Shown: piece after piece, positions 24,438 through 55,866 of the stretch
Numbering within the stretch: the stretch's first letter is position 1
How the letters are laid out: every line of letters starts with the position of its first letter
Origin: a virus
Virus record (IMG/VR): IMGVR_UViG_3300020220_000008
Coordinates: 1 to 64,000 of that record
Length of the DNA stretch: 64,000 nt
Direction: 5' to 3' (one strand)
Notes under the pieces: generated by a model
The model's input: the letters and a program-made list of their open reading frames with translations, nothing else
Told to the model about the DNA's origin: nothing
The model's database searches: none
Made by a program: the position numbers and the translations under genes

Positions 24438-24791
24438 TTAATTATTACTCGGTCTATTTTCTTCAAACCATTCAATTATTCCGTTAATTGCCCATACAGC
24501 CCCTGCTGAGACAATACCGTCAAAAAACCAAGAATACGAAATTGGTGTGTTGAACATATGATTTGTAGGTGAAAAAATCAATAAGGACAATACAAATCCA
24601 CCCCACGTTGAAAAGCAAAGTGGACAGTTAATTAATCCTGATAAAAATTTACCTATTGGTTGTAATGGTAATAATTCATTATTAGCCCATCGGCCTAAAA
24701 AATCTCTTAATCCTTGGAATATTGATCCGTAAACCATAATATTCATTAGTCCATAACTCATAATGAACCATACTAAAACTTTTGTTATCAT
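24438..24791 (-). CDS. Small membrane protein, DUF1360-like
   Basis: 117 residues with about three membrane helices. The block LSGLINCPLCFSTWGGFVLSLL near residues 50-70 has the CxxCxSxW pattern of DUF1360 membrane proteins, whose role is unknown. It starts 4 bases inside the end of the coiled-coil gene 24788-25426. Its place inside the gp46/gp47 operon is odd for a membrane protein and may mean that replication or recombination complexes are tethered to the membrane, which is speculation. Confidence 0.7.
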   Translation of the reverse strand: MITKVLVWFIMSYGLMNIMVYGSIFQGLRDFLGRWANNELLPLQPIGKFLSGLINCPLCFSTWGGFVLSLLIFSPTNHMFNTPISYSWFFDGIVSAGAVWAINGIIEWFEENRPSNN

Positions 24792-25426
24792 ACTCGTTTG
24801 TTTAAATTTGATCCCCTGAGTAGATAAGCCTGATTTTGGTTACCATTCAAAAGGTCTCGGTTTATTTTTTCTAATTGTTTTATTTGTTCGTTCTTTTGTT
24901 GTAGTTCAGTTCTTAGATTTTGTAATGTCTCTTGAAGTAGTTTTGCTTTGTCATTACCTTTTGAAATGTATAAACTTCGTCTAAGTTCATCTATTTCTTC
25001 ATTCTTTTTAAACATTTCATTTTCCAAGTTTACAATTATTTCGCCAAGTTCATTTTCAGTTGTTTTGTCACTAATATATTCTATTTTTGTGACAACTTTT
25101 TCGACAGGTATTTCTTTAAGTACCTCAACTATTTTTTCAACTTCAACGATTCTATCAACAGAAACCTCAACAATTTTTTCCACCTCTTTTATCACTTCAA
25201 CAGGTATTTCGTTTTCCGCCCATTTTTTTTGTTCCACCCCTGTTTTTAAGTTTTTTTCACTATCATTGAGTGTTTTTTCTAAAAGTCCATATTTTTTAAT
25301 ATCAAAACCTTGTTTAAAACATAGATACATAAAGTTATCCACATCTTCAATTTCTTGTGATTCACAAAAGGCAGATACCGCCAGCATTATTTCTTTATTA
25401 AAGATTTTGAAGTTTTTCAATTCCAT
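24788..25426 (-). CDS. Coiled-coil protein between gp47- and gp46-like genes
   Basis: 212 residues. Residues 1-50 look globular (FCESQEIEDVDNFMYLCF). Residues 65-115 contain VEVIKEVEKIVEV-type repeats like those in 17470-18768. Residues 120-200 are a long coiled coil. It overlaps the 3' end of the gp47-like gene by 29 bases in another frame, and the next gene overlaps it by 4. A structural accessory of the SbcCD-like complex is one possibility. No family is recognised. Confidence 0.65.
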   Translation of the reverse strand: MELKNFKIFNKEIMLAVSAFCESQEIEDVDNFMYLCFKQGFDIKKYGLLEKTLNDSEKNLKTGVEQKKWAENEIPVEVIKEVEKIVEVSVDRIVEVEKIVEVLKEIPVEKVVTKIEYISDKTTENELGEIIVNLENEMFKKNEEIDELRRSLYISKGNDKAKLLQETLQNLRTELQQKNEQIKQLEKINRDLLNGNQNQAYLLRGSNLNKRV

Positions 25427-29022: not shown

Positions 29023-29259
29023 ATGCCAACACAAATTACTGTTAATTTTTCGGGTGGTTCACCTCCATTTGATATTTATACTTGTGATACGGGTTACACG
29101 ACTTGTATTTATGTAGACACGGTTGGTTTTGGAGAATTACCATATTCGTTTGACCTTCCATTTGTTTTGGAGGGTATGTCTTCTGTTGGAGTAAAGGTAG
29201 TTGACAGTAATGATTGTTTTGCATCAAATAATTCAATAATAGAATATGGCAAGTTGTAA
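29023..29259 (+). CDS. Small tail-associated protein, SprB-domain-like
   Basis: 78 residues, a single beta-rich domain (GGSPPFDIYTCDTGYTTC ... LPYSFDLPF ... VKVVDSNDC). It is clearly related to the minus-strand gene 37813-38037: both share PPF, a CD, a Cys-Tyr block, a LP..F.LP block and a D-S-x-x-C end. The GG-PPF opening and VVDSNDC resemble SprB repeats. It is probably a tail-fibre accessory or decoration module. It overlaps the start of the next plus-strand gene by 14 bases. Confidence 0.7.
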   Translation: MPTQITVNFSGGSPPFDIYTCDTGYTTCIYVDTVGFGELPYSFDLPFVLEGMSSVGVKVVDSNDCFASNNSIIEYGKL

Positions 29260-30736
29260 TAATTTAGGAGTATTTGCACTTGACACTTCAGCTAGTCTAA
29301 ATCTTTGTCTTTCAGCCCAAACAAATAATGTTTATGGTGATAGTTTAGTAGTTAGTAAGGGAGTTTATTTAGACTCAGGATGCACAATGGCTTTAACAAC
29401 AATTTATTTAAGTAATGGTATTAACTTATATGAAACGAATTCTATAGGAGAAATTATAGGTATTACAGGATGTCCTTGTAATTATTTAGGGACTTTTTCA
29501 TCTGCCTCAGATCCTGACACAAGTTGTTTAGGGCCATTTATATTTGAGGTATATGGTTCAAACCTAAATATCGGAAAAACTCTATATTCGAACTCTTCAT
29601 GTACAATTAATTATATTACAACTTTTTTATCCGACGGTGTTAACGTGTACAGTGTTGATTCAGTAGGAGTTATTGATACTATTTACGGTTGTTCGTGTGG
29701 AGCATTTGTTTGTGTTCATAACGACACCGTTTATGACGACCAATATCAGTTTGCAGGGGTTTTCGATAGTCAAAACTATTACACAGGACAAACAACCAAT
29801 TTTAACATATTTTATTCATCAAGTGAATCTCGTTGGTGTTTAGCCCAAAACCTTGGCGATCCTTGCGATCAGTTTGGTCCCTTTGGAAGTACTTCGTCCT
29901 GTCCTGATTTTGATGACACGGTTGCCTATACAGGATTTTGTGTAACGACCACTACTACAACAAATCCTTGTGTTGATTTTGATTTTGATGCGGTTTTTGA
30001 TTGTTATGTACCGCCAACTCCAACTTTGACTGCAACAAACACGCCAACTCCAACGCCAACTCCAACACCATCAACATCTGCAATTTGTGGTGGACTATCT
30101 ATTGATGTATCGGTAAGTGGTTACACACCAACCCCAACGCCGACATATAGCCCCACCCCAACCCCGACAAGTCAAATTAAGCGAAACTGTAATTTTAGTG
30201 GTGAAGTTGTATTTAATACATTCAATGAAATACTTCAATGTGCAAATAGTAAAAAATTTAAAGATTGTTTCACGGGTCAAGAGTATTTTTCTTCGGATTT
30301 AATTTTAATATCAGAAACAACTTCGAAACCTAAAGAAGGTTACGTATATAATGCAATAATAAACAATCAAGGACGTTGTGTTATTTATGAAGGGTTATTT
30401 GAAAACATAAGTGGTGTAGATGACGTAATTCTTAAAAATGAAGTTGGTTCTAGAATCGATGGGTCCTGTTTACAATGTATTCCAAACCTTTCTGCGACCC
30501 CAACTCCAACTCCAACACAGACTCCAACACCTACTCCTTCGACGACACCATGTGTATTAGTTAGATGGTATGTTGCAAACAATAGTCTAAACGAAATTAA
30601 ATATGTTTATTATAATTGTGGTGAAGAATTGACTGGCGGACTAAACGCCTATTCCTCCCTCTATGTATGTTCGAGTTCCACCCCAACATCAAACTCTCCC
30701 AACTTCACTGTAACATCATCTCAAACAATTTGTTAA
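29246..30736 (+). CDS. Tail-fibre/adhesin candidate with Pro-Thr linkers
   Basis: 496 residues. Residues 1-155 hold two copies of a Cys-containing beta domain (YLDSGCTMALTTIYLSNGI and YSNSSCTINYITTFLSDGV). Residues 255-311 and 417-435 are Pro-Thr linkers (TPTPTPTPTP). Further Cys-rich domains lie between and after. Linkers of this type also occur in the minus-strand protein 31863-34370. The modular Cys-rich architecture fits an exposed host-recognition protein. The Pro/Thr stretches are potential O-glycosylation sites. It ends at the hairpin 30740-30765. Confidence 0.7.
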   Translation: MASCNNLGVFALDTSASLNLCLSAQTNNVYGDSLVVSKGVYLDSGCTMALTTIYLSNGINLYETNSIGEIIGITGCPCNYLGTFSSASDPDTSCLGPFIFEVYGSNLNIGKTLYSNSSCTINYITTFLSDGVNVYSVDSVGVIDTIYGCSCGAFVCVHNDTVYDDQYQFAGVFDSQNYYTGQTTNFNIFYSSSESRWCLAQNLGDPCDQFGPFGSTSSCPDFDDTVAYTGFCVTTTTTTNPCVDFDFDAVFDCYVPPTPTLTATNTPTPTPTPTPSTSAICGGLSIDVSVSGYTPTPTPTYSPTPTPTSQIKRNCNFSGEVVFNTFNEILQCANSKKFKDCFTGQEYFSSDLILISETTSKPKEGYVYNAIINNQGRCVIYEGLFENISGVDDVILKNEVGSRIDGSCLQCIPNLSATPTPTPTQTPTPTPSTTPCVLVRWYVANNSLNEIKYVYYNCGEELTGGLNAYSSLYVCSSSTPTSNSPNFTVTSSQTIC

Positions 30737-30790: not shown

Positions 30791-31114
30791 TTATCTTCGT
30801 CTTCTAAAATATCTTGATTCCGACATTGTCTCCATATCCATATCCATTTTGTTTTTACCCCAATTTGGATTTGGTCTTTGACTTGCAATGTCCATATCAT
30901 TTTTTTCACTTCTAATTGCAAATTCCAATTCTTTCAAGTCAGACATAATTTCATCTGGTGTTCTTGCACCCAATGTACCACCTCTTTCTTCTAAAAAACT
31001 TCTCAAAAAGTCCATAGCACTTCTTTGTTCTGTTCTTTCATCTTCCATTTCAAAAATGGTTCTTTTAACTATTCTTGATAAATCTCTTTCTGTTAATTTA
31101 ACTATTTTTTTCAT
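30791..31114 (-). CDS. Small leader-bearing putative virion-internal protein
   Basis: 107 residues. The first 22 residues (MKKIVKLTERDL, then a basic helix ending TIFE) are a close paralogue of the leader of 752-1120 and end in I-x-Glu. The mature part is acidic then helical (MDFLRSFLEERGG, DEIMSDLKELEFAIRSEK) and ends in an Arg cluster (SRYFRRRR). It could bind DNA or the portal through that basic tail. It sits alone between terminators and has TATTTAT 12 bases before the ATG. Confidence 0.75.
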   Translation of the reverse strand: MKKIVKLTERDLSRIVKRTIFEMEDERTEQRSAMDFLRSFLEERGGTLGARTPDEIMSDLKELEFAIRSEKNDMDIASQRPNPNWGKNKMDMDMETMSESRYFRRRR

Positions 31115-31862: not shown

Positions 31863-34370
31863 TTAAATATCTAATTTAACAAAATATTGTTGAATTCCCT
31901 GTCTCAAAACTGGCGATTGCATTTTGGACATTATTAAAACATCTTTGTTTTCATCCATCAATGCAATTTCCGTAATGTAAGATGGTGTTCCGAAAGTCCA
32001 AGTTGGATTTTGCGAAATTATGAATTCATTTACGCTCAAATTAATTTTATATTTCATTTCGTAAATTGTTGCTTGGATGTCTGTTTCCAAATTTCCATAA
32101 AAATAGTATTCATCCCCGAAATTTAAATTTACTCCACTTGCACCGTTTGGTACTAAACTTACATAATCATTTAAGTCATAATAAGGTGCCGAGTAATAGT
32201 TTTCTGAAGTGATTACAAATGTGGTTGCTGTAAGAGATTCTTGAGTTACAAACCCATTTATAAAATCATTTTGTATCTGACTTGTAAAATCTATCATCCT
32301 CCATAAAGTAGGGTCAGGTCTTACACCTGTTGGTCTAATTTGTGCTAAAATTTGAAATTCTTGAGCGTAAAATCCAGCAGGGACAACACATGTTGGACAT
32401 TGAGTTGTGGTTGTTGTTGTGTAAGGATAAAATGTGGTGGTAGTTGTTGTGTTAGGATAAATTGTGGTGGTAGTTGTTGTGGTTGTTGGTGAATATCCAG
32501 GTTGAACTAAACATGGAAATTCACCACCAAATCTTACTGCAACATTTTTTGGTGTGTCTGGTGTGCAAATATTTTCAGTTCCCACAACACTCGTGTAATA
32601 ATTACTATGTAAAGAATTTGTGAATGTATTGGTATTTGACAGTCTATAAGTAACCCATAATGTTTCTGCTCCTCCAGTTAAAACACCTGTAGTATTCGAG
32701 GTTCCACAAGTATTCGGTGTAATCAATGAAACTTGTGGTGCTGGTAGAGTCCAGTTTCTGTTTGATTTATTGGATAATGCCGCAACCAATTCTTCGTCAT
32801 CAATGATGATTAGTTTGGAATCGGGATATACTTTTCCAATTCTACTTGGCAAACCATTAGATTGTGCAAATGTGTCCCACAAATTATAATATCTAATACC
32901 AAGTTGATTCATCTGTTGTGATATTTTAGACTTAGTAAATTGTACTTGAAATAAATTTTGATTTTCGAATCCTGGTGGATCAACAAAAAAAGTTTGCCCA
33001 AAACAACATTCAGGATTTTTATGCCACATTATTGTTGGCATGTAAAGTTTGAAATTTCTTGCTTGGCCTTGCGTATTTTCGGGATTCGTAAAATCATAAG
33101 GTTCTAATGCAAATTTTTCACCATAAAAAAAATCAATTGTTTGATTGGTATAATGAATAATTGCGATTGCTTTTTGTTCTTCAGGTGTCACTACAATTTT
33201 TTCTTTGAAAGAATTATAGTAATAAACATCATCGGTAGAACTTTGACCCTTTGATGAATTATAACCAAAGTATTCTTTTTGACCTATATAATTTATTGAG
33301 CCGAATTTTGTGTAATCTTGGAATTTAGTCGATATCAAACCAGCAGGGCTTTCAGTCCACGGAATATTCATATTCCATATTTTAACATCAAACTGATCCG
33401 TATCACAAACAGATTCAAAATCAATAACATTTTTATTCCAATGTGGTTCAGGAGTAAAACTATCATATATTGGAACCATCTGCGGGGGATAAATTAAAGT
33501 TCTTGCCAAACAATCGCTTGATAAATTAGTAAAGTCAGGTGTATTTCTGTCTAATGTTAATAGGTTACCGCAAACATCAACAATTTTATAAGTAAGAATT
33601 GAAAAACAACTAACGACATCTTTTATACAATCTGGTGGTTGAGGTATTGGACATTGAGCGCTTGGTGTGGGTGTTAAACATGGAGTATGTGTCGGTGATG
33701 GTGTAGGTGTAGGTGACGCACATGGTTCTGATAATGTGCTTGTAGGAGTGGGTGTTGGTGTTGGTGTACTGTAAAGGGATGGTGTTGGTGTTGGTGTTGG
33801 ATAATTACTACAAACACAATCAGTTTTTGCCCTACCATCGTAATAAATTGTTATAAAATCACCAACATTCGGGGTGTTGTTGTTTTGAACGTTACAGTCC
33901 ATTTTTTCGACCAAAATTTGATTTGTTCCTTTAAGAGTGGACATATTAACCACATAATTTGGAGTTATGACATACGAATTATTTACAAGTGCCTTCCAAT
34001 CTATTGTAGTTGCGGTTGTATTTCCCGTAAAAAAACCTCTCATTGCGGCCCTATTATAAACAGAATTAATATCAGAGTCCATAAAAGGTATACCATATAT
34101 GTTAGTTTCACCTTGATCAACCAAATAAGGATATTTTATATATTGTCGGTTTGACTCAGGAACACCCGAACTATTTTGGGCATTAAATTGTGGCTCTAAA
34201 ACTACAGTATTTGTTTGGTTATAGGTTGTAGGTAATTCATCATATGTAATTTCACTATCTCCAACCGCAAAATAGACAATATTAAATCTCCCTTCAGACA
34301 TTCTTTGTCTTCCTGTATCAGTTACCCTTGTATTAACTAAACCTGATGTGTTTTTTATTATATATGCCAT
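31863..34370 (-). CDS. Large tail/baseplate-region protein with Pro-Thr and poly-Thr linkers
   Basis: 835 residues. The N-terminal domain (MAYIIKNTSGLVNTRVTDTG) is followed by a Pro/Thr/Ser linker at 187-240 (PTPTPTP with Cys), a large central domain (240-620), a poly-Thr linker at 623-657 made of three TTTTTT-(I/F)-YP units, and a C-terminal domain (658-835). It is clearly a structural protein by context and composition. Its exact baseplate position is not recognised. TATTTAT lies 7 bases before the ATG. Confidence 0.75.
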   Translation of the reverse strand: MAYIIKNTSGLVNTRVTDTGRQRMSEGRFNIVYFAVGDSEITYDELPTTYNQTNTVVLEPQFNAQNSSGVPESNRQYIKYPYLVDQGETNIYGIPFMDSDINSVYNRAAMRGFFTGNTTATTIDWKALVNNSYVITPNYVVNMSTLKGTNQILVEKMDCNVQNNNTPNVGDFITIYYDGRAKTDCVCSNYPTPTPTPSLYSTPTPTPTPTSTLSEPCASPTPTPSPTHTPCLTPTPSAQCPIPQPPDCIKDVVSCFSILTYKIVDVCGNLLTLDRNTPDFTNLSSDCLARTLIYPPQMVPIYDSFTPEPHWNKNVIDFESVCDTDQFDVKIWNMNIPWTESPAGLISTKFQDYTKFGSINYIGQKEYFGYNSSKGQSSTDDVYYYNSFKEKIVVTPEEQKAIAIIHYTNQTIDFFYGEKFALEPYDFTNPENTQGQARNFKLYMPTIMWHKNPECCFGQTFFVDPPGFENQNLFQVQFTKSKISQQMNQLGIRYYNLWDTFAQSNGLPSRIGKVYPDSKLIIIDDEELVAALSNKSNRNWTLPAPQVSLITPNTCGTSNTTGVLTGGAETLWVTYRLSNTNTFTNSLHSNYYTSVVGTENICTPDTPKNVAVRFGGEFPCLVQPGYSPTTTTTTTTIYPNTTTTTTFYPYTTTTTTQCPTCVVPAGFYAQEFQILAQIRPTGVRPDPTLWRMIDFTSQIQNDFINGFVTQESLTATTFVITSENYYSAPYYDLNDYVSLVPNGASGVNLNFGDEYYFYGNLETDIQATIYEMKYKINLSVNEFIISQNPTWTFGTPSYITEIALMDENKDVLIMSKMQSPVLRQGIQQYFVKLDI
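32413..32500 (-). repeat. 30-bp tandem repeats encoding poly-Thr linker
   Basis: Units at 32413-32442 and 32443-32472, plus a partial third, differ at only a few bases. Each encodes six Thr plus an aromatic-Pro turn. Slippage here would lengthen or shorten the linker in steps of 10 residues. Confidence 0.8.
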
Positions 34371-34397: not shown

Positions 34398-36527
34398 TTA
34401 TTCATTCGGTTGTGGTGTAGGTGGTGAAGTGATGATTGTTTTAGGATTACAACAACTACAATTGTTTAAAACAACATTCGATAGCGTAAGTGAATAATAT
34501 CCTAATGCAAATTTACAAAGTCCAACTGGTTGATTGATTATGTTTGTAGAAGTGCTCCCTGATATTACTTGACCACTTGTCATAGTTATTGTATTTAAGA
34601 ATTGTTTTACGATTTGTGTATTATTAATAGGTCCTGTTATACTACACGGACCACCTAATGCATAAACATTGACTAATGTGTTTACAAGTGTCATATTCCC
34701 AACACCTTGAATATTTGTGAAATTATTATATGTTGGTATTGGAATTAAATTTTGGGGGTAATAATTAAAAGTTGAATTCATTACGACATCTAATGTAATG
34801 GTCACTCCAATCGGTAGAGACGGAGCGGTTAAAACAAAAGTATTATTGTTGTAATTTATATTGAAATCGATCACATAATCTGTTATAGGAACATTACCAA
34901 CCACAATGTTTGTTAATGAACCTGTTACATTATTTGAGTCTAATACAAAAATATCGTAATTGCCAGGTGACAAACTACCGAATATTGGTGACGATTGATA
35001 TGTAAGTCCTCCATTGATAGAATATTGATAAGGCATTTGACCTCCATTTGCACTTACGGTAATACTTCCATTAGTATTACATTCTGCGTCATTTACAACA
35101 GTTGAAACCACAATTTCATAAGAATCCAAACATTCGCCTTGAGTCATTTGTAAACTTAAAACTTCAGGAGGTCCATAAATTTGCCAATTACTTAATGGTG
35201 GATATGTCGGGTCATTGTTAACAATATTTATTAACGAATTTGAATAACCTGTAAATACCCATTGTGGCGGTGTTGATCCAATGTTCCAATAAACAACATA
35301 TTGACCTGATGTTGAAGAAGTACCAGTCGAAGGGGAGGAAGGGGCCGAAGGAGAAGCTGAAGAACTTGTTGATGAAGACCAACTTGGTTCTCCATTTATT
35401 GTATTACCCGAATCTAACTGTATTTGTAGTAATTCAACAGGAGAATCTGTTTTTGATGATCTTATAGTTAAAGTTACACACAATGATGTCAATTCAATAG
35501 GTATAGTCGGCTCTTCACAATTACCTAATGTGGATTGAGTTATCGAATATTGTGTGTCAGAAATAATTACCCAATTTCCTGTTGAACCAGTAGGATATAA
35601 ATAATCATTTTTGGTTAAAATGTTGTAGGGTTCCCCTTGACATTCCAAAGTAGTACAAAAAACCCACATATTATTATTTTGATCCCAAAATACATACCCC
35701 AAAAGTTCTACACCATATTGTATGATAAAATAAGGTTTTGTGTTTTTGAAACCTTCGGGTTGTGAATTTATAAAAACAAGTTCGCTTTCAACCAAACCAG
35801 TAAGTACAAAACACATACCAGAAAAATTTGTGGTTTCAGCAGTTAAACTACAAGTTGTTGTCGCCGAAAAATCACCATAGTAGTCAGTAATTGTTGCCGA
35901 ATAATCTCCAACCCCCAAATTAGTTAGTGCTGGAGCAAAACTTCCGATTTCCCAAAAAATAATATAAGGCGGAGTTCCACCTGTAACGATCAATTCTACC
36001 GCACCATCAAAAGTTCTATCTGAGGAGGGTTGTTGTGTAAAACAACTAACTCCCATTGGAAATATCGTAATCACATCGCATTCATTTTTGGGTTTAACCG
36101 AAGGAATACTTGTCGGACATTGATTGTCTTCACAAATATCCGTTAACTTTAAAGGTATCTGAATTTGATCATCAAACTGAGGATAAATTTTACTACAAAT
36201 ATTGTAAGTTAAACCTTGTGTAATTGTGTCTACAACAATGTTGTCATTACAATCGACATATGTTATGTCTGTTGTTTGGTCTTTTGATTTTATAAAATAA
36301 CAATAACAGTTACAAGTGCAAGTAATTCCTGTATTGATTGTAATTTCATATGTTATATCACATTCCACAATACCTAAATCGACAACAAAAAAACAAGTAT
36401 CAGGTGTTTGTCCAGATATATCAATAGAAACATAATTAAATGATGACTCACTCAAACCAGAAAAATTTGATATAATTGGAGGATATGTTCCATCACAGGA
36501 ATAGAGTATATAACAGTTTTCTATCAT
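34398..36527 (-). CDS. Tail protein with SprB-like repeats
   Basis: 709 residues, beta-rich. Several units follow the SprB pattern: a Cys-x-Asn-Gly-(S/T) opening (AECNTNGSITVSANGGQMPY), a tyrosine strand (YQYSINGG), then a Gly turn and YDIFVLDSNN. A Ser/Pro-rich linker (SSSTSSSASPSAPSSPSTG) lies near residues 381-400. The C-terminus is Cys-rich (NNCSCCNPK). SprB repeats belong to the flavobacterial gliding adhesin. Here they probably build a long fibre or decorate the tail. It is preceded by TATTTAT. Confidence 0.75.
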   Translation of the reverse strand: MIENCYILYSCDGTYPPIISNFSGLSESSFNYVSIDISGQTPDTCFFVVDLGIVECDITYEITINTGITCTCNCYCYFIKSKDQTTDITYVDCNDNIVVDTITQGLTYNICSKIYPQFDDQIQIPLKLTDICEDNQCPTSIPSVKPKNECDVITIFPMGVSCFTQQPSSDRTFDGAVELIVTGGTPPYIIFWEIGSFAPALTNLGVGDYSATITDYYGDFSATTTCSLTAETTNFSGMCFVLTGLVESELVFINSQPEGFKNTKPYFIIQYGVELLGYVFWDQNNNMWVFCTTLECQGEPYNILTKNDYLYPTGSTGNWVIISDTQYSITQSTLGNCEEPTIPIELTSLCVTLTIRSSKTDSPVELLQIQLDSGNTINGEPSWSSSTSSSASPSAPSSPSTGTSSTSGQYVVYWNIGSTPPQWVFTGYSNSLINIVNNDPTYPPLSNWQIYGPPEVLSLQMTQGECLDSYEIVVSTVVNDAECNTNGSITVSANGGQMPYQYSINGGLTYQSSPIFGSLSPGNYDIFVLDSNNVTGSLTNIVVGNVPITDYVIDFNINYNNNTFVLTAPSLPIGVTITLDVVMNSTFNYYPQNLIPIPTYNNFTNIQGVGNMTLVNTLVNVYALGGPCSITGPINNTQIVKQFLNTITMTSGQVISGSTSTNIINQPVGLCKFALGYYSLTLSNVVLNNCSCCNPKTIITSPPTPQPNE

Positions 36528-36543: not shown

Positions 36544-37524
36544 TTAAAAACTGTATTTTTGAAGATAAGTTTTCATGTTTTCAATATATTTTATTGTTGA
36601 GCTTTTAGAATCTATATAATCAAAATAATTTATGTTTTCTTTTAATTTTTTTAATGGGTCTATATTAATATAGGAACCTTTGTAGAATTTTGTATTTTTT
36701 AAGTCTTCAGTAACTCCTGCCATATGTAAAATTGGTTTTTTTTCATAGACTTCAATATTGTCGGTCGCCCATGAAAAATCAAGTTCTTTTGTTATAACTG
36801 TTTGTTTGTTGTCCTTCCACAAGTTCCACAATAAACTCCACATTTCTGCAGTCCAAAATTGAATTTCTCCAGGTGATATTGGAAATCTTTTTTGATAATC
36901 TAACATTTGATTATACAACCCTATTGAGTCTTCATATATTTTTTCCCACAACTCATATGTTGTATCTTTGATAATATACTGACCTCCACCTGAATGTAGT
37001 CTATTTTTTTCAATAACGTCGATATCAATTTTTACAATTTCTGCCATTTCTTCTAACAACTGATTTCTTGTTGAACTCGGGTATTGTTGTTCATATCTTC
37101 TACAACAATCAACTATATAGTCATAACTAATATATCCATTCGTGTCTGACAAATAACAAACGTCATCTTGAATCATTTTTTCAAAATTTGGTAAAGTTCT
37201 AAATATTATATCCGCGTCATGTAGAAAAAATAATTTTCCGTTTTGAGGACAATCTTTAATCCACTTTGAAATCAGGTATGGTTTTATAGAAGGTATGTAA
37301 TGTTTTTTTTTTCTTTCGTCAAAATAGTAATGGACTTTTACTCCCATTTTTTTTAACTCTGAAGACTCCTTAGATGGCTCTTGACTTGGGGTTACAATTG
37401 CAAAAATTATATGAATATTTGATGGGTCAATTTTTTTTTCAATAAAGTTGTGAATATAAAGTTTGGCTTGCCAAATGAAGTATGGAACATCTGGTTGTGC
37501 TGTGACAAATAATAGATTTTCCAT
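36544..37524 (-). CDS. Glycosyltransferase (GT-A type)
   Basis: 326 residues. The N-terminus MENLLFVTAQPDVPYFIWQ and the nucleotide-sugar DxD motif in FFLHDADIIFR (about residue 101-107) fit a GT-A fold. SGGGQYIIK near 174 and EIQFWTAEMWSLLW near 220 recall protein O-galactosyltransferases of the hydroxyproline/serine type, though only loosely. It lies between SprB-repeat and Pro/Thr-rich tail genes, so the likely acceptor is a tail protein, with DNA or host glycan as alternatives. The start is an ATG behind a T-rich leader with TATTTAT at 37534-37540. Confidence 0.78.
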   Translation of the reverse strand: MENLLFVTAQPDVPYFIWQAKLYIHNFIEKKIDPSNIHIIFAIVTPSQEPSKESSELKKMGVKVHYYFDERKKKHYIPSIKPYLISKWIKDCPQNGKLFFLHDADIIFRTLPNFEKMIQDDVCYLSDTNGYISYDYIVDCCRRYEQQYPSSTRNQLLEEMAEIVKIDIDVIEKNRLHSGGGQYIIKDTTYELWEKIYEDSIGLYNQMLDYQKRFPISPGEIQFWTAEMWSLLWNLWKDNKQTVITKELDFSWATDNIEVYEKKPILHMAGVTEDLKNTKFYKGSYINIDPLKKLKENINYFDYIDSKSSTIKYIENMKTYLQKYSF

Positions 37525-37812: not shown

Positions 37813-38037
37813 TTATGAAGAACAGTAAACAATTTCATAAAACAAACACCCCTGACTATCAATGATGGTGAGTTGCATGGCAGGAGCTGTGTCGAATTGC
37901 GAAGGTAAATTAAAAATATGAGGTAAGGTTGATCCTGTTCCTAAATATTGGCATTGATTACCATATATATCACAAGCAATACCACTAAATGGCGGGACTA
38001 AATCAACTATTGTTGTGACTGAAACTTGGTTTGCCAT
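37813..38037 (-). CDS. Small SprB-like tail-associated protein
   Basis: 74 residues. It is a paralogue of the plus-strand 29023-29259 protein, with shared PPF, CD-x-x-x-x-C, a LP..F.LP block and a D-S-x-G-C end. Single beta domain, no membrane segment. It begins immediately after the stop of the 732-residue SprB-repeat gene and is probably co-translated with it. It is followed by the decayed frame 37559-37812, so it may once have been longer. Confidence 0.65.
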   Translation of the reverse strand: MANQVSVTTIVDLVPPFSGIACDIYGNQCQYLGTGSTLPHIFNLPSQFDTAPAMQLTIIDSQGCLFYEIVYCSS

Positions 38038-40236
38038 TTAACTACAATCTACACAAGAAATGTTATAATCAATTACTAAATTAACTTCTATTTCTGTATC
38101 TTGTAATGGATTTATAACTTGTGGTTTACAGGATTTATTAATTTCTTCACAGTTTGTTTTTATCGTAATTCTATTAGAAACTAAATCAATAGTTACGTCC
38201 GAAATTCCAACAAAACCATTCAAAATGTCAGTGATCGCTTCCGCCCACTGAATATCGTTAGGATAATCTGTTCCACCATTAGATGAATAAAATTCAGTAA
38301 TGGCGGATTGTGAACCCACTTTAGCTGAAATAGAAAATGTCGCAGAGTCTATAATACAATTGGTATCTCCACTTGTTAAATCATAAAACCCTTCTAGAAA
38401 CATTGATCTAACAGTTCTTTTTGTGACTAATCCACTATCGATAAAAATATTATTACAAACATTGTAATATTGATAATTACTAAATTTTTTTGTTCCTTGT
38501 AAGGTTGTGTATTTCGTAAGACTACATCCACTTTCGTCAATCACAGTTAAACTATAAGTGCCTGCGGTTAGACCAGTCACAACATAGCCATCTTGTGTCT
38601 CTGCAGTACCTCCACTCCAATTGAGAGTAAATGGCGGAGTTCCTTGTGTTATAAATGCGGTTATAGACCCGTCTTTACCAACAATTGGTTGGTTAGGAAC
38701 TAAATTAAAATTTACAGGTTGACTTGTTGATATGTTTATTGGAAATGTTTGAATACAATTAGGTGTTGAAGAATCTTGTATTGTTAATACATAATTTCCC
38801 GTGTATAAGTTGTTAAAAACATTGAATGGACTTGTGACTGTTGTTGGATTTGTACCTGTGGGTCCTACCAAAGTATAAATATACGGAAATGTTCCACCAG
38901 TTGATGCTTCAACTTGTAAAATCCCATTGTTCAAACCACAAGTTGTTCCTGTCACTTGAGTTGTAGCACTAAATAAATTAACAGACTCAATTACTGTGGA
39001 TGTAGTATAAGTACACCCTGTCGATGTGACTGTAACAATATAAGTTCCATTTGATAACCCATTGAAAGTTTGATTAGAATTTCCCATTAAGCCAACTTTA
39101 CTAATACCTGTAGAACCAGATATAGAAATTTGTAGATTTAATACGGGACTTAATCCACCATCAACTAAAACATTCAAAGATCCATTGTTCACTGAACAAG
39201 TAGAATTTGTTGTCGTTAACTGAACGGTTGTAAAAGAATTAGGAGTTGTCAAACTTACTGAATCGTAAATTGTACATAGTCCGGCATCGGTGACTAAAAA
39301 AGAATAAAATCCTGTTGACAATCCTGTAAATGTAACTGATGAACTAAATGTTATTTCAACTTGTCCTGTAGAAGCACTAAAAAAATATGGTGGAGTTCCA
39401 TCTACAATTATAAATTCTACCTCTCCATCGTTACTAAAACATGTTGGTTGTGAAATTACAATAAAACCACCCGAAGTTAATGGGGCAACTGAATTAACCG
39501 TAAATGATTGTGAGGAGGAACAACCAATAGAATTAGTAACTGTTGCGATATATACACCTGCCGTTAGACCGGTAATTGTAGACCCTGTTTGACCATTTGC
39601 GTTGGAAGACCACGTTATTGTGTAATCGACTGATGGCGATGTTAAACCTGTGATAAATATTTTACCACTTCCATTTCCAATACAACTAGCATCATCAACA
39701 ACATAACCACCAAAGGTGATACCTGATGATGGATTTAAAATTACTGAAGCGGTAATTCCATTACATCCTCCACCATCATCGGCAACTATGTAGTAAGTTC
39801 CCGCAGACAGACTTGTGAAATCTAAATAGTTTGTGGTAGAAATTCCACTAGTTATTAGATTATTCGTAATGTCATAAAGTAAAAATGTTGTAAAACCATA
39901 AACGGATGAGGTGAATCCTGTTATACTTCCGTTGTTGAATCCACAACTAGTATTTGTAGAATCAATTGTGGCGGTTGTTCCTGTTGAAATATAGACTGTA
40001 ATTATAATTGAAGCCGAAGTACCGTCAGTTATTTGTAAAAAGTAAGTTCCACCTGATAAACCAGTTACCCTATATTCGTATGGTTCGGTTAGAGCTGAAG
40101 TTGGTAGTGGACAACCTGCGGTTATACAGTTTACCGCAAATGGGGGTGTTGATCCTGTGACGCTGAAAAACAGCTCAGCTGAGTTTGTATTTGTACAATC
40201 ACCTCTTACACTATATTGTTCAATCGAAATACTCAT
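38038..40236 (-). CDS. SprB-repeat tail fibre/adhesin candidate
   Basis: 732 residues. Residues 1-600 are about eight tandem beta repeats of some 75 residues, each with the SprB features T-x-C-x-x-NNGS, a GG-x-x-P-(Y/F) strand, FNGLSNGTYIVTV and an end like D-x-x-GC. The C-terminal 130 residues are a different domain (FSNYQYYNVCNN ... NISCVDCS) resembling the end of the 995-residue protein. SprB is the mobile surface adhesin of gliding flavobacteria, so these fibres may mimic or bind it. It overlaps the next gene by 1 base. Confidence 0.8.
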   Translation of the reverse strand: MSISIEQYSVRGDCTNTNSAELFFSVTGSTPPFAVNCITAGCPLPTSALTEPYEYRVTGLSGGTYFLQITDGTSASIIITVYISTGTTATIDSTNTSCGFNNGSITGFTSSVYGFTTFLLYDITNNLITSGISTTNYLDFTSLSAGTYYIVADDGGGCNGITASVILNPSSGITFGGYVVDDASCIGNGSGKIFITGLTSPSVDYTITWSSNANGQTGSTITGLTAGVYIATVTNSIGCSSSQSFTVNSVAPLTSGGFIVISQPTCFSNDGEVEFIIVDGTPPYFFSASTGQVEITFSSSVTFTGLSTGFYSFLVTDAGLCTIYDSVSLTTPNSFTTVQLTTTNSTCSVNNGSLNVLVDGGLSPVLNLQISISGSTGISKVGLMGNSNQTFNGLSNGTYIVTVTSTGCTYTTSTVIESVNLFSATTQVTGTTCGLNNGILQVEASTGGTFPYIYTLVGPTGTNPTTVTSPFNVFNNLYTGNYVLTIQDSSTPNCIQTFPINISTSQPVNFNLVPNQPIVGKDGSITAFITQGTPPFTLNWSGGTAETQDGYVVTGLTAGTYSLTVIDESGCSLTKYTTLQGTKKFSNYQYYNVCNNIFIDSGLVTKRTVRSMFLEGFYDLTSGDTNCIIDSATFSISAKVGSQSAITEFYSSNGGTDYPNDIQWAEAITDILNGFVGISDVTIDLVSNRITIKTNCEEINKSCKPQVINPLQDTEIEVNLVIDYNISCVDCS

Positions 40237-43223
40237 TATTGATTACAATAGATTTCGAACGATAATCCGATGTTTATTTCAAACTGATTAAAGTTCGGTA
40301 TGCAATTATTATTGAAAACGGTCACAATTTCATCATCTTCATTAATATTATAACTGTAACCTGAAAGTTGTAAATTATTTAACGCCTCAGTTAATCCATT
40401 AATCCAATCTTGATTAGTCGGAACATTGAAAGGTCCGACTCCAACAAAAAATTCATAGTTTGTAAGTACAACGCCATTTAATCTCAAATCCGCGTACCAT
40501 GTAGAAACTACAGTATTCGGTAAACACGTTGCCGAATCCAAAGAATTATTAGAGTAAAAACTGTCTAAAGTAGAATTTAACACAGACCCCATCGAGGTAA
40601 TGATTGGGTTATCATTCCAAGGATATAATCCACATATAACTTGTTGGACTGGACAATCGTAAACAAAAACTTGAGTAGAAAGTGAACATGGTTTACATGG
40701 TACGGGAACAATTTTACATCCTTCTTGTCTTCTCCATACAAACTTTTGTCTATGAAAAATAGAATTTTCTAATTTTACACCTGTATTCCAAATAGTGGTT
40801 GCAGGAACCATTTGTTCAACCATTCTAATCCAATAGCTTCCCATACCATTGATATAATCTATCATAGTTTGATATGTAAAATTATCGTTAGTAATTCCTG
40901 CTTGTGTTTGTGATTCTAAATATTTCCAATATATAGATTGCAGTGTTGGGTATCCCCCTGTTTTGCCGTCCGTTATAAATTGTCTATTTCTAGTGTTTAC
41001 CATGTTTCTCCAAAAAGTTTGAGCAAATTCGAAAAAAGTTTTTTGTTTTGGTTTTGGAACTATTGTTGTCCAATCTATACCTCCGTATCTCGGGTAGAGA
41101 TTTTGTACCTTACAAGGCGTATCCGGTGTGTAGAAAAGACCTTGTTCGGGGATTGGGTAATTATATTGTCGAGACATTGTCCAAACATCATAGACTAAAC
41201 CTTGTGCGGGATTCATCATAATGTCCACATTTTTAACATTTAATGTTAAACATTCTTCACCAACAGAATAATAAGCCGTAAATCCACCATCAGATGCGAG
41301 TCTGAGTGTTGGATTTGTATCTGTCCAACTTTTTTTGTTGTCACTAATTCTTTTTAACTTATATCCCAAATTCATGTATGGGAAATTTCTATACAATTGA
41401 AGATATTCTTCACCGTAATTGAAAGGTAATAATTCTGTTTGAAAATTAGGGTTGTTACCTATAAATATTTGATTTGTTGGTGGTGCAAACTCCGGCATTC
41501 TATGATCTGGTGTTGATTCAAACCAACCTCCACCTATTTGGAAAAAATACGATTCTGATTGAGTTGCCATCTTTGGACATCCAAAATCATCAACAGGATA
41601 ATCTTCTCTTGTTGTTAAAACTGTTCGATTTGCTAACGTTGTTGTAAAACCAGTGTATTGAATTCCTTGTATGGAAAATGTGTTGTTTGTTTCTAGTACT
41701 GGAAATTGTTCAGTAAATGTTCCTCCAGATAAACTTAAAAACTGTTGTTGGAATTCAGACATGTTGATTCTTTGATCGGCAACATAAATGTATTCGTTAA
41801 AATCTATCAGTGCTTCTGGAGCCCCCACCATTCTAAGCAAACATTCTATTGATTTACGAGTTCCTTTGGATTTGAACAACCACGCCGAATTTATAATTAA
41901 ATTTCTATAAAATTGATAGTTTATCTCTTCAGGTGTTGGTCCTATTTGTAATCCAGGAAATGTGTTTGGTTGGGTTGTAAAAACCGCTTGTAATAATTCT
42001 TCGTTTGATATTGGCGAAAAGTTTGTAACCCATCCTAATGTTTGAGCCAAATTTTTAAGAAGTTGTGATGGTATGTCATTTTTAACGGTATAATGAACAC
42101 TATTAATATTCCCTAAAACAGAAATGAAGGACTTTGTTTGATCAAAACTTCTACCATAAATTTGTAACAATTTTTCAAATTTACGATCTGGAGTATCAAA
42201 TTCTTTCAAGCATCCAGTTGTCAAAAATCTCGATATAATATTTGTATTATACGTATCTAAATTAATTGCAAAATCATTAATTTTGGTAAGATAATTATCG
42301 AAAACTTGGGATTCAATATCTAAATTCCACACCCCACTTTTTGGAAATGTTGCAAGTTCAGTTGTTATAGTAAAAGTTCCATCTTCTTGTTCTTTAGGAA
42401 CCGTAAAGGTTGCGGTATATGCCGGAGTTATATTTCTATTCAGTAAAAATTTTTCTACTGGATCAAACTTCAAGTTGAAAACTCTGTTAACTTCAAAACT
42501 ATTTGGTCGAATAACCAAATAGTCGTATGAAATACTGTCTCGATTAAATGGATTACCATCAACTATCATTTTTAAAGAAGTAGATTTATTAGTTGTTGGG
42601 TATAAATAATTTATTGGATATTCATTTCCATTCACTACTAATACATATTTTTTATATTCCAACTTCATGTTTCTCAAAATAGAAATTTCCATTTCATTGA
42701 ACAACATATTGGTTTCTGCGTTAACTGTGTAATCTATATCGAATGGGTTTCTTATCGATGTTATCAGTATTTCTAAAGTTGTATCGTTTTCAACTGAGTC
42801 ATAAGTTATATTAAAGGCTGTCTCTTGTGTGATAAATTTGTCAGTAGTTGGAGAAACTTCTAAACCTGCCGGAAAAAAATTTATTATTTTGGTTATTGAT
42901 ACTGAAAATCTTTTAATCAATGATCCATACTGTGTAAAATTAGTAACTTGGGATAAATCGTAGTTAGGATATACTCTGTAGTTGTTCGCCAATATTTCCG
43001 CGGCTTCGACGTTGTTTTCAATATTTATACCTTGTAAATTTATAGGATCTGAAAAAGTTCCGATATTAAATTTTCTAGTTTGTTTTTCAGAAATATTTGT
43101 GGTAAAGTTGAAATTTGCTTGTGTCAAACCTCCTCCAGTTACTAACTGAACTCCAACCAAATTATTTGAAAATTGATTGGCGGCGCTACTCTGAGTGGGA
43201 CAAGTAAATTTATTAACCGCCAT
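40236..43223 (-). CDS. Baseplate wedge/tail protein (gp7- or P2 gpI-like region)
   Basis: 995 residues. Around residues 345-475 the block LKNLAQTLGWVTNF ... YRNLIINSAWLFKSKGTRK then SIECLLRMVGAPEALIDF resembles the KGT helix of P2 gpI-type tail proteins and the gp7-type wedge. The length is close to T4 gp7 (1032). The C-terminal 100 residues form a Cys-containing domain shared in style with 38038-40236. It is likely the baseplate connection to the fibres. It is coupled to both neighbours by 1-base overlaps. Confidence 0.7.
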   Translation of the reverse strand: MAVNKFTCPTQSSAANQFSNNLVGVQLVTGGGLTQANFNFTTNISEKQTRKFNIGTFSDPINLQGINIENNVEAAEILANNYRVYPNYDLSQVTNFTQYGSLIKRFSVSITKIINFFPAGLEVSPTTDKFITQETAFNITYDSVENDTTLEILITSIRNPFDIDYTVNAETNMLFNEMEISILRNMKLEYKKYVLVVNGNEYPINYLYPTTNKSTSLKMIVDGNPFNRDSISYDYLVIRPNSFEVNRVFNLKFDPVEKFLLNRNITPAYTATFTVPKEQEDGTFTITTELATFPKSGVWNLDIESQVFDNYLTKINDFAINLDTYNTNIISRFLTTGCLKEFDTPDRKFEKLLQIYGRSFDQTKSFISVLGNINSVHYTVKNDIPSQLLKNLAQTLGWVTNFSPISNEELLQAVFTTQPNTFPGLQIGPTPEEINYQFYRNLIINSAWLFKSKGTRKSIECLLRMVGAPEALIDFNEYIYVADQRINMSEFQQQFLSLSGGTFTEQFPVLETNNTFSIQGIQYTGFTTTLANRTVLTTREDYPVDDFGCPKMATQSESYFFQIGGGWFESTPDHRMPEFAPPTNQIFIGNNPNFQTELLPFNYGEEYLQLYRNFPYMNLGYKLKRISDNKKSWTDTNPTLRLASDGGFTAYYSVGEECLTLNVKNVDIMMNPAQGLVYDVWTMSRQYNYPIPEQGLFYTPDTPCKVQNLYPRYGGIDWTTIVPKPKQKTFFEFAQTFWRNMVNTRNRQFITDGKTGGYPTLQSIYWKYLESQTQAGITNDNFTYQTMIDYINGMGSYWIRMVEQMVPATTIWNTGVKLENSIFHRQKFVWRRQEGCKIVPVPCKPCSLSTQVFVYDCPVQQVICGLYPWNDNPIITSMGSVLNSTLDSFYSNNSLDSATCLPNTVVSTWYADLRLNGVVLTNYEFFVGVGPFNVPTNQDWINGLTEALNNLQLSGYSYNINEDDEIVTVFNNNCIPNFNQFEINIGLSFEIYCNQ

Positions 43224-44128
43224 TAAGGTGTGATATTATTAAATGCTTTAGAAAAATCAATATTGTCGCCTCGGTTTTCTCTTACTTCATAGAGTAGAGA
43301 GTTGAATTGGTCTTTGATTTCATATAAGTTATACTGTTTATAAATATTATTATCAGTATCGTAAATTGTATAGATACCGTCTTCAATCGACTTAGTTTGG
43401 TTTCCATATAAGGCAATTGCAAGGGTTGAGATGTCTTGGTCTACAATTTCAATTTCTGTTGAAATTGGATTAAAATATGTGTTTGTTATAATAATATTTT
43501 GATTAGGTTGTCCAATGAATGGAGTTGCACTTGGTTTGTTACTAGGCGAAGACGATGGTGATAAAGTACAAAACATCAAATTTGTTGCACCCTCCACATA
43601 TCGATATCTAATTGATTTTTGAATTGTGTTGGTTAAGTTTTGAATGACGGGTTCGCAATAAAAGGATGAAGTTATTATTCTAAAAAAATTTGGAATTTTA
43701 GTCCCATCTGAATTCAAATACTCAACTCTAAATCCAACGAGACCTTGATTTATAAATTTATTTTTGTATTCAACAGGAACATTATTAAGATCAATTACAA
43801 TTCCTTTGACATTAGGTAATGCAGACAAAACCCCACAATCAGTTATTGTTGTTCTAATTTGTGCTGGTCTTATCATAAGTGTATATATTCCTAAACTAGT
43901 GAATTGATCTGCGGGTAATTTTAAACTGTATAATCCCCCTAAAACCTCCACAGTATTTCCACCAGTCTCATTATTGTTAAAGTAGGGCCTCAAAACATCT
44001 TGTGCGTTTAAAGTGGTTAAAATAAAGTTTTCCGTGTCATCTCTTGATGGTGTATAAACCATGACAATTTCTACGTCCTCGGGGCTTACGTCTGCCGGTC
44101 TTATTGTCCCATAATTACCTGTTGCCAT
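43223..44128 (-). CDS. Baseplate-region structural protein, unknown
   Basis: 301 residues, mixed beta. Its start MATGNYGTIRPADVSPEDVE, the block YSLKLPADQFTSLGIYTLMIRP, and a Ser/Pro linker (LSPSSSPSNKPSATPF, residues 190-205) are visible. No known domain. It is the first gene after a TATTTAT element and overlaps the 995-residue gene by 1 base, so a role in the same assembly is likely. Confidence 0.68.
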   Translation of the reverse strand: MATGNYGTIRPADVSPEDVEIVMVYTPSRDDTENFILTTLNAQDVLRPYFNNNETGGNTVEVLGGLYSLKLPADQFTSLGIYTLMIRPAQIRTTITDCGVLSALPNVKGIVIDLNNVPVEYKNKFINQGLVGFRVEYLNSDGTKIPNFFRIITSSFYCEPVIQNLTNTIQKSIRYRYVEGATNLMFCTLSPSSSPSNKPSATPFIGQPNQNIIITNTYFNPISTEIEIVDQDISTLAIALYGNQTKSIEDGIYTIYDTDNNIYKQYNLYEIKDQFNSLLYEVRENRGDNIDFSKAFNNITP

Positions 44129-53560: not shown

Positions 53561-55408
53561 CTAAGAAAAATTAACCGATTTTAAGTTCAAAACTCTAATA
53601 TTAATATCTTTGTTGGGGAATCTAATTTGGTATACTTGAGTGGGGGTTGCAAATATAGTATCGGCCGTAGGTTGAATTTGTTTTGTCAAAGGATCTAAGT
53701 AAGGCATTGAAGTTTGTGCTGAAGAATACTGTCCTCCAACTTGATTAAAAAATAAAATATCAGAAACACTTACTACTCCATTTTCTGACTGAAGAAGTTT
53801 TCTGATTTCAGAGATGTTAACATTCTGTCCTAATTGAATTACTAACGGATTAAAATATTCTGAGACAATCTGGATCGCCTTTGTTATAAGCGCCCCTTGG
53901 TTTTGACTGTTATCAAGTACAAGATCTACTGTTACACTCAAATCAATTGTTTCTGCCGCTTCCACAGATATATAATCATTTATCATTCTATAATTCGAAA
54001 GATAATTAGCAATGTTTTGTTTAAGAGTGTTCGACACCACATTTGATAAGCTACCTTCAGTATCATAAGATAACATTTTGATTCTTATCTTATTGTTTTC
54101 TTCGGTAATTGCAACTTTAGCTGGCGCACCAAATTGGGATGGCATAGTCCTAATCAAAGAATTATAATCATTAACTGTAACCGCCCTTTTCTGTGCCGCA
54201 AAATTAAAAGAAACCATGTTTCTAACATCTTCAGTTGTTGGTAAATTAGCGCCACCGATAGTTGCGGTAACATTATTACACTGTAAACTGTTGATAACAG
54301 TTCTATTTACCGAATCCGAAGGCCCATTTACTGCAAAAGAAATAGTCCCAATCTGATTAATGGTGTTTAATCCAACATTACTAGCTAATCCTCCTCCAAT
54401 TCTATATTGAACAAAAAGAGTGGTATTGGGCGTTAGTGCCGCTCCCATGGCGTAATTGTTGGTGTATCTACTCAAATCGAATCCTTTGCCGTCTCTTGCA
54501 AATTCTCGAAGTTGTTCTTCAGCAGAAATATTTCCTCCACCAAAAGTTAATTTACAAAAACCTTGAGGTGTATATTCAGAAATAAATTTATTCGATGTCG
54601 TTATGTATCTTCCAACTTTAATACCTGGTTGATCAGAAACTTTAGTTGGGTCTTCAACAAAAATTCTATCTTGAACTAAGGCGTCCACTTCATACCACCT
54701 GTCTAAACCCAAACTTAAAAAATCTTGTGGGCTTGGTGTTGTTGAATATTGTGTTCCAGGTTTTAACAAAACACTTGTTATATTGAGAATATTTTTTTCA
54801 GGAAGAAACAATTCTAAATAAGGTTTAACATCATTTGGTGTTATAACTCTTTTGAAAACTTTTGTAACTCCATTTACAACTACTTCTCTTTTTACAATAG
54901 TATAATTAATTAGTTTTCCACTCGAGTCAAAATTTGGAATTTTAACTCTATTAGGTGACCCTTCAGCGTTTATTGGTGACGCAAAATCAATATCGTAGAC
55001 TGTTTCAAATGGTTGTCCAGCGCCATTAACTAAAGACCCTCTTCTCAAAATTCCACAATATCTCAGATCTTCTCTATCTCCAAAAGCTGGAACGGTAATT
55101 GAAAAATCTACTAATCCAACTGAAGGTCTTTGACCCGGCACTTTCAATCCGTAAGTTCTTGCAATATTGTATACAGAGTTTTTTTGTTGGGCAAATTGTA
55201 ATACGGTTTCTTGAATACTTCTGTCTATCTGGTAATTCAAATTATCTGTCACGGCAGCATTCAAATCCAACATTACTGAAAAAATACCGGCGTCGTTGAA
55301 ATTTTGAACTAAATCTGGATAGTACGTTCTTGTAAAATTTATAAGTTCAGTTCTAACTCCTTGGAAGTCTCTAGCTACGTATGATATTTTTTTTTCTGCC
55401 ATATTCAT
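53561..55408 (-). CDS. Baseplate wedge protein, gp6-like
   Basis: 615 residues. The N-terminal region (VARDFQGVRTELINFTRTYYPD, DAGIFSVMLDLNAAVTDNLNYQIDR) and the central ANYAMGAALTPNTT/VRNMVSFNFAAQKRAVTVNDY blocks fit the gp6/baseplate-J family. T4 gp6 (660 residues) forms the iris-like inner ring of the baseplate. Two starts are possible, MNMAEKK or MAEKK; the first overlaps the gp25-like stop by 1 base. It lies directly after the gp25-like gene, as in many T4-like phages. Confidence 0.88.
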   Translation of the reverse strand: MNMAEKKISYVARDFQGVRTELINFTRTYYPDLVQNFNDAGIFSVMLDLNAAVTDNLNYQIDRSIQETVLQFAQQKNSVYNIARTYGLKVPGQRPSVGLVDFSITVPAFGDREDLRYCGILRRGSLVNGAGQPFETVYDIDFASPINAEGSPNRVKIPNFDSSGKLINYTIVKREVVVNGVTKVFKRVITPNDVKPYLELFLPEKNILNITSVLLKPGTQYSTTPSPQDFLSLGLDRWYEVDALVQDRIFVEDPTKVSDQPGIKVGRYITTSNKFISEYTPQGFCKLTFGGGNISAEEQLREFARDGKGFDLSRYTNNYAMGAALTPNTTLFVQYRIGGGLASNVGLNTINQIGTISFAVNGPSDSVNRTVINSLQCNNVTATIGGANLPTTEDVRNMVSFNFAAQKRAVTVNDYNSLIRTMPSQFGAPAKVAITEENNKIRIKMLSYDTEGSLSNVVSNTLKQNIANYLSNYRMINDYISVEAAETIDLSVTVDLVLDNSQNQGALITKAIQIVSEYFNPLVIQLGQNVNISEIRKLLQSENGVVSVSDILFFNQVGGQYSSAQTSMPYLDPLTKQIQPTADTIFATPTQVYQIRFPNKDINIRVLNLKSVNFS

Positions 55409-55866
55409 TAAATATTAAGGATAACAAAATCTTGAGATTCGAAGGCTGAATCTGTAATTTTGTAATCAATTTTGATTCTTGCGGTGTGTTCTAAATTAGC
55501 GATGTTTGTTACTTTGAACTCTCTTTCTCCTGAACTATTTACGGTGTAACCTTTGTTTTCTAAACCAGCAGAAGCAGGTTCCACAGTTATATTTGTTACT
55601 TGTAAATTTGGCATGTAAGTTTTGACCGTATCTCGTATTTCAGATTCTATATCGGAAAAGGTTGGTCCATCTAAAGGTTCGAAAATATATTCATATAATC
55701 TAGTACCGAAATTTGGTAAATAATATCTTGAGCCTTTTCTTGTTAAAAGTAAGTGGACAAGATTTGATCTAATTTCAGTTTCTGTAGTACTTGTAACGTC
55801 CAAATACCTTCCAGTAAACGAATCCACAAAAGGGAAAGAAATACCATAAGTAATACCATTTGCCAT
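55408..55866 (-). CDS. Baseplate wedge protein, gp25-like
   Basis: 152 residues of the GPW/gp25 family: ISFPFVDSFTGRYLDVTSTTETEIRSN in two parts at residues 9-36, LLLTRKGSRYYLPNFGTRLYEYIF around 39-62, then IESEIRDTVKTYMP. gp25 joins the baseplate wedge to the sheath. Length matches T4 gp25 (132) with a slightly longer C-terminus. It is the first gene of the unit with gp6, with TATTTAT 7 bases upstream. Confidence 0.92.
   Translation of the reverse strand: MANGITYGISFPFVDSFTGRYLDVTSTTETEIRSNLVHLLLTRKGSRYYLPNFGTRLYEYIFEPLDGPTFSDIESEIRDTVKTYMPNLQVTNITVEPASAGLENKGYTVNSSGEREFKVTNIANLEHTARIKIDYKITDSAFESQDFVILNI

Follow-up and report, generated by a model that had tools for sequence, protein, structure and literature searches.

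A phage protein family with a glycosyltransferase fold is co-inherited with poly-threonine tags on structural proteins

Many phage glycosyltransferases modify DNA or host surface glycans. Among enzymes with protein acceptors, the plant hydroxyproline/serine O-glycosyltransferases (GT95 and GT96) act on Pro/Ser/Thr-rich proteins, and the general O-glycosylation of Bacteroidota uses the motif D-S/T-A/I/L/M/T/V. Glycosylation of the virion itself by phage-encoded enzymes is reported for the mycobacteriophages Che8, Corndog and Myrna (Freeman et al. 2023, via PMC12363180 and PMC12619734), where the glycans are said to sit on the C-terminal ends of the capsid and tail-tube proteins (PMC12619734, citing Freeman et al. 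2023). Here we analyse a 64,000-nucleotide stretch (the window) of a 152-kb IMG/VR virus record, IMGVR_UViG_3300020220_000008, in which a putative glycosyltransferase is encoded close to proteins bearing uninterrupted runs of threonine.

The enzyme gene (36544-37524, minus strand, ATG start) encodes 326 residues and is matched over its full length by the phrog_4417 profile (E 1.2e-65; residues 6-319 against profile positions 3-290 of 293). PHROG 4417 is annotated as function unknown and carries an older label, ‘prophage pi2 protein 34’. Confirmed relatives in IMG/VR number 434-549, a figure that varies with the query; in a collection of isolated phages 77 records match the enzyme, 74 of them covering at least 80% of the query, and among bacterial species genomes 39 loci hold relatives, many of them evidently prophages. 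A repeat of the viral scan, run from a wider alignment, gave an identical set of 80 loci. The sequence-only reading had proposed a DxD-type glycosyltransferase, and this proposal is borne out: the motif is D103-A-D105, in FFLHDADIIF, both aspartates are invariant in alignments of 21 and of 52 diverse relatives, H267 and K282 are invariant among the 52, and structure prediction returns a confident GT-A (Rossmann-like) fold (pLDDT 96.7, pTM 0.93) with the DxD placed between strands 98-101 and 106-108.

Foldseek matched this model with probability 1.00 to GT24, GT8 and GT6 structures. The nearest solved structures are the catalytic domain of UGGT (GT24), GT6 enzymes, and glycogenin and XXYLT1 (GT8), at about 8-12% identity and TM-scores of 0.38-0.47 by query length. 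By analogy with glycogenin, D103, D105 and H267 would presumably bind the metal. At the level of sequence, 21 family members matched no glycosyltransferase-related Pfam family even at E<=10, and neither these members nor their profile gave a Pfam or PDB match to GT8, GT24 or GT6. The order of motifs in the enzyme (DxD, a Gly pair, W-x-x-E-M, H-x-G) is similar to that in plant GT95/GT96; as to kinship, the 21 members gave no Pfam match to these families at E<=10, and no such structure was recognised among the PDB matches listed. Judged from the model, phrog_4417 is a distinct family with a GT-A glycosyltransferase fold. The enzyme has no predicted transmembrane segment and no hydrophobic stretch of transmembrane kind.

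The gene lies in a tail/baseplate region and is flanked by structural genes, in agreement with its earlier placement between tail genes: family matches identify gp6-like (53561-55408) and gp25-like (55408-55866) baseplate wedge proteins, and the neighbours carry SprB repeats. Directly downstream of the enzyme, after a 16-nt gap, is a 709-residue SprB-repeat protein (34398-36527, minus strand), and 27 nt further on, two genes downstream and on the same strand, an 835-residue tail-region protein (31863-34370, minus strand). Directly upstream, across 288 nt, a 74-residue protein (37813-38037, minus strand) occupies a slot that is variable between relatives and in some holds long Pro-Thr repeats; beyond it a 732-residue tail-region protein in the same orientation (38038-40236, minus strand) has a weak SprB-repeat match that falls below the curated Pfam cut-off. 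On the opposite strand, a 496-residue tail-region protein (29246-30736, plus strand) bears Pro-Thr linkers and one run of six threonines (T6). SprB repeats are known from Bacteroidota gliding adhesins. Their occurrence in tail-region proteins to either side of the enzyme gene (34398-36527 and 38038-40236) suggests a Bacteroidota host and adhesive tail domains. Elsewhere in the window, two otherwise different small proteins (752-1120 and 30791-31114) begin with nearly the same leader (MKRIVRLTENDLARIVRRVIRE and MKKIVKLTERDLSRIVKRTIFE), possibly a capsid-targeting or sorting peptide, and a 432-residue protein with membrane-like N-terminal segments (17470-18768) has a tandem heptad-like repeat, PVEVIREVEKIVEV, similar to a repeat in 24788-25426.

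Pro-Thr or poly-Thr linkers had been noted in 29246-30736 and 31863-34370, with Ser/Pro linkers in two more proteins. All are present, the Ser/Pro-rich stretches being visible in 34398-36527 and 43223-44128, and since the reading frame, family, DxD, fold and listed linkers all checked out, the underlying observation was correct. In 31863-34370 the threonines form blocks of eight (T8, 32463-32486), six (T6, 32433-32450) and six (T6, 32403-32420), together residues 629-656 (32403-32486, minus strand); their Thr codons are mixed, which speaks for selection at the protein level and against repeat slippage. The same protein has a Pro-Thr linker around residues 190-240, with its core (residues 201-217) at 33720-33770 (minus strand). 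In 29246-30736 the T6 run (residues 234-239; 29945-29962, plus strand) is encoded by ACG ACC ACT ACT ACA ACA, and three Pro-Thr repeats lie at 30011-30082, 30125-30175 and 30491-30553 (plus strand). Runs of at least five threonines (T5+) occur in only three of about 147 called genes of the 152-kb record, two of them near the enzyme; the third gene, 96753-97796, lies outside the window and has T6, T5 and T6 blocks (VTTTTTTVSPITTTTTLMPVTTTTTTNG). An eight-Thr-codon pattern occurs once, in 31863-34370; shuffled versions of the window give an expected count of 0.00. The predicted acceptors in the window are most likely the T8, T6 and T6 blocks of 31863-34370 and the T6 run of 29246-30736, and 96753-97796 of the record is a possible third candidate, far from the enzyme gene. 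The latter forms a paralogous-looking pair with 95873-96793 (L446), which bears a Pro-Thr linker instead of Thr blocks.

We surveyed the neighbourhoods of about 200 enzyme loci systematically and then dereplicated them. In clades other than the window's, a T5+ run was present in the gene at position -1 of the enzyme in 57/78 dereplicated loci, in the gene at +1 in 0/77, and in genes further away in 47/569. In the window's clade the run falls at +2 in 23/34 loci, far from the enzyme in 25/340, and at +1 in 14/37, the slot of 34398-36527, which itself has a Ser/Thr/Pro-rich stretch and no T5 run. Tags typically consist of T5-T8 blocks, often with spacers of 1-5 residues such as S, AAP, EAP or KP, and in Firmicutes phages they are Thr runs with little Pro. 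The proteins that bear them next to the enzyme are unrelated structural proteins of many folds, in isolated phages mostly major capsid, major tail and decoration proteins. The enzyme gene of isolated phages usually comes after a major structural gene: the major tail protein gene in phiFL1A (with a 1-nt overlap) and Semele, the ‘major structural protein’ in 1706, and the capsid protein in bIL285 and Planchet. In iLp84 it comes after a small protein that follows the major capsid protein, and in SA2 one small gene separates it from the major tail protein. Semele, LpeD, 521B and LP65 have the tagged gene and the enzyme at a site separate from the main structural block.

Sixteen of the 115 dereplicated loci had no T5 run within 6 kb by simple gene calls; genes in unannotated contigs were called by a simple ORF rule, by which some tags (Semele) were missed, and at least three of the sixteen (Semele, 521B and LP65) bear a variant Thr-rich tag. 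The Lactobacillus phages 521B and LP65 hold the most diverged members of the enzyme family, and their neighbouring tags are diverged as well, (TTVKPTTVAP)n in 521B (L089 6425-6967) and (TATTTETQTQTQNPV)n in LP65 (L090 6052-6934), as if enzyme and tag were co-evolving. bIL285, where the enzyme follows an untagged capsid gene, was dropped as an exception because its orf50, five genes away, has the tag. Poly-Thr is insufficient to predict the presence of the enzyme: among loci found by a poly-Thr DNA pattern only 7/36 have it, and with this count the notion of an enzyme for all poly-Thr phage proteins was rejected. The remaining 29 of these 36 usable loci (among L450-L529), from varied viruses, encode proteins with runs of at least nine threonines and have no phrog_4417 member nearby; some of these proteins may go with glycosyltransferases of other families.

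For one Bacilli major tail protein, orthologues were gathered regardless of the enzyme. A poly-Thr C-terminal tail was present in 16/16 with the enzyme nearby and in 0/57 without it (Fisher p 2e-16, relatedness ignored). On a tree made from this protein minus its tail (68 rows), both enzyme and tail change at nine points, always together and without a mismatch; the nine co-changes of the best tree lie partly on weak branches, and restriction to firmly supported branches leaves five independent pairs, all concordant (sign-test p 0.06). Coetzeevirus R3.3, in which the enzyme is present, has capsid and tail proteins ending in TTTTTTKAPTTTTTSSHA and TTTTTTSHA; the nearest of its relatives in which the examined region holds no enzyme, Bassarid, ATCC8014 and phiJL-1 (capsid proteins at 68-75% identity to the relative that served as query), have neither tail. 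Capsid and tail proteins bear matching poly-Thr C-termini in R3.3, phiFL1A, 1706 (both ending T9-10-HHD) and iLp84 (both ending T7-SK). A capsid-protein scan for a second contrast found only close relatives, all with the enzyme. The joint presence or absence of enzyme and Thr runs in related phages suggests that these phages sugar their own particles.

Adjacent genes can be carried together by recombination, and the enzyme and Thr runs might accordingly form a mosaic block linked by chance, the runs being merely flexible tails. We consider such an accident extremely improbable: the tails occur jointly on non-adjacent capsid and tail genes in 1706, iLp84, phiFL1A and R3.3, the tagged gene of bIL285 is separated from the enzyme and its untagged neighbour, and the structural proteins that carry enzyme-adjacent runs are unrelated. 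We also give next to no credence to phage DNA or host surface glycans as the acceptor, with a role in restriction evasion or serotype conversion, common though such modification is among phage glycosyltransferases, which often act on these substrates (PMC12619734). Against this acceptor stand the lack of a predicted transmembrane segment, the position of the enzyme within structural operons of unrelated phages, and its co-inheritance with poly-Thr tails. DNA glycosylation in particular was judged unlikely because no hydroxymethylase of thymidylate-synthase type was found in the 152-kb record, which may be a fragment; the search with PF00303 (thymidylate-synthase fold) gave no match, and the controls were positive.

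In the window's own clade, homologues of 31863-34370 were gathered both with and without the enzyme nearby. The homologue contains a T6 run in 35/42 loci with the enzyme and in 0/30 without; when any gene of the locus is counted, the figures are 39/42 and 5/30. In the set placed on the tree, eight enzyme-bearing relatives have a homologue with no T6 run. PTPTPT repeats occur in 42/42 and 30/30, and in four relatives (L273, L349, L360 and L364) the Pro-Thr linker is kept and the Thr run cleanly gone. The enzyme therefore goes with the Thr run and not with the Pro-Thr repeat. Only uninterrupted runs separate the two sets of loci, as a looser density (at least 8 T in 12) gives 40/42 against 20/30. 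Since the enzyme changes only twice on the clade's tree, nearly a single comparison, this covariation is weak on its own. No copy of the enzyme was found in 20 records of enzyme-free relatives, some above 300 kb and the largest about 326 kb, in a search with no internal positive control; the gene was detected in the window's own record by a separate search.

These counts also speak against the link between enzyme and Pro-Thr linkers that the sequence-only reading had expected in related phages. Co-occurrence with Pro-Thr linkers, as scored in first counts of P+T content, was rejected because enzyme-free relatives retain Pro-Thr repeats, and for this reason the claim was narrowed to Thr runs. 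Modification of the Pro-Thr linkers, comparable to that of plant extensins and with the Thr runs incidental, would be in keeping with the linkers of all 42 enzyme-bearing relatives and of the 31863-34370 homologues, but we hold it very unlikely given that the repeats are equally constant in relatives without the enzyme, that the linker outlasts the Thr run in the four relatives named above, and that the tags of Firmicutes phages are poor in Pro. Some enzyme-free relatives (L291, L299, L304 and L315) have other carbohydrate genes beside their Pro-Thr proteins, namely GT9, a DegT aminotransferase with a hexapeptide transferase, a sulfotransferase and an FkbM methyltransferase. As a lead, such relatives may decorate their Pro-Thr linkers by another route.

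A transferase acting on Thr runs need not be the one that primes them. The enzyme might extend a sugar already set on Thr by a host or phage transferase, as would suit its structural neighbours XXYLT1 and GT6, which extend glycans (self-glucosylating glycogenin is another neighbour), and as the sugar genes of relatives without the enzyme (GT9, aminotransferase with acetyltransferase, sulfotransferase, FkbM methyltransferase) would allow. We regard this as unlikely, because small phages have a tagged protein and the enzyme in a structural block where no further sugar gene is evident.

We consider it quite probable that the enzyme itself, acting in the cytoplasm, glycosylates Thr runs on structural proteins of its own phage, in a metal-dependent reaction with a nucleotide-sugar donor. 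The fold, conserved motifs, gene neighbourhood and co-inheritance with the Thr tag are established for the enzyme; the acceptor, O-linkage, donor, retention and timing of its action are what we infer. A soluble, metal-dependent GT-A enzyme would take a sugar from the nucleotide-sugar donor and place it on Thr side chains within runs of T5 to T10, often with xP or xxP spacers. The transfer would probably proceed with retention of configuration, since the closest structural families (GT24, GT8 and GT6) are retaining. Modification would occur in the cytoplasm, before or during virion assembly, and its likeliest role would be to give exposed, flexible virion tags a coat of glycan, which might serve shielding, adsorption or stability. 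The earlier proposal that the phage O-glycosylates its own fibres, for shielding or a tuned host binding, thus stands in part: co-inheritance of the family with Thr-rich structural tags, together with their co-occurrence, makes O-glycosylation of the phage's own virion proteins most likely, whereas ‘fibres’ is too restrictive a term, most tagged proteins of isolated phages being major capsid, major tail or decoration proteins. More tentatively, and short of calling it probable, we propose that poly-Thr is a portable tag and that enzyme and Thr run form a two-part cassette, gained or lost as a unit by phages of Bacilli, Bacteroidota and others, which would sugar-coat any tagged capsid, tail, decoration or baseplate protein.

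We found no description of the phrog_4417 family together with a poly-Thr tag in the open-access literature, and both the enzyme family and its acceptor signature appear to be new, for an activity that is itself known, phage-encoded virion glycosylation. An unannotated protein family would thereby gain a putative function, and the Thr run would serve as a sequence tag predicting which proteins are modified. It is also implied that virion glycosylation by phage enzymes is far commoner than in the few mycobacteriophages for which it has been shown, and that it extends to phages of Enterococcus, Lactobacillus, Staphylococcus, Lactococcus, other Bacilli and Bacteroidota. Isolated phages with enzyme and tags are named here, the lactococcal phages bIL285 and 1706 and the Lacticaseibacillus phage R3.3 among them, so a test is possible without delay. 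If the idea is confirmed, it would bear on the recognition of phages by antibodies and bacterial surfaces, and may provide a simple one-enzyme tool to O-glycosylate tagged proteins; if the tag is truly portable, it might be all that a cytoplasmic protein of any kind needs in order to be glycosylated.

How, then, does this locus compare with the systems already described? Like the mycobacteriophage system, it has a phage-encoded glycosyltransferase, here a predicted one linked to structural genes, and the mycobacteriophage glycans are reported on the same two proteins and at the same end as the poly-Thr tails of the phages examined here. The systems differ in that the predicted acceptor here is a Thr run and the hosts are Bacilli and Bacteroidota. 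No mycobacteriophage was among the sequence matches of the enzyme family, and Thr tails were rejected as a feature common to Che8, whose capsid and major tail proteins have no C-terminal Thr run. With GT24 (UGGT), GT8 (glycogenin, XXYLT1) and GT6 the enzyme shares the fold, the DxD and a conserved C-terminal His, but it differs from them in that profile searches of its sequence matched no Pfam or PDB family. Unlike for the plant GT95 and GT96 enzymes, no hydroxyproline is expected in the phage. General O-glycosylation in Bacteroidota, the presumed host phylum, likewise involves an O-linked sugar on Ser/Thr of proteins; its sequon is absent from the Thr blocks at 32403-32486 and 29945-29962, which hold only Thr, with spacers (IYPN, FYPY) that lack Asp. 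The phage case differs further: the cytoplasm is where its structural proteins are put together, and it has an enzyme of its own. Within PHROG 4417 the window's protein is a full-length member, and the fold and the association with a Thr tag are what this analysis newly brings to the family.
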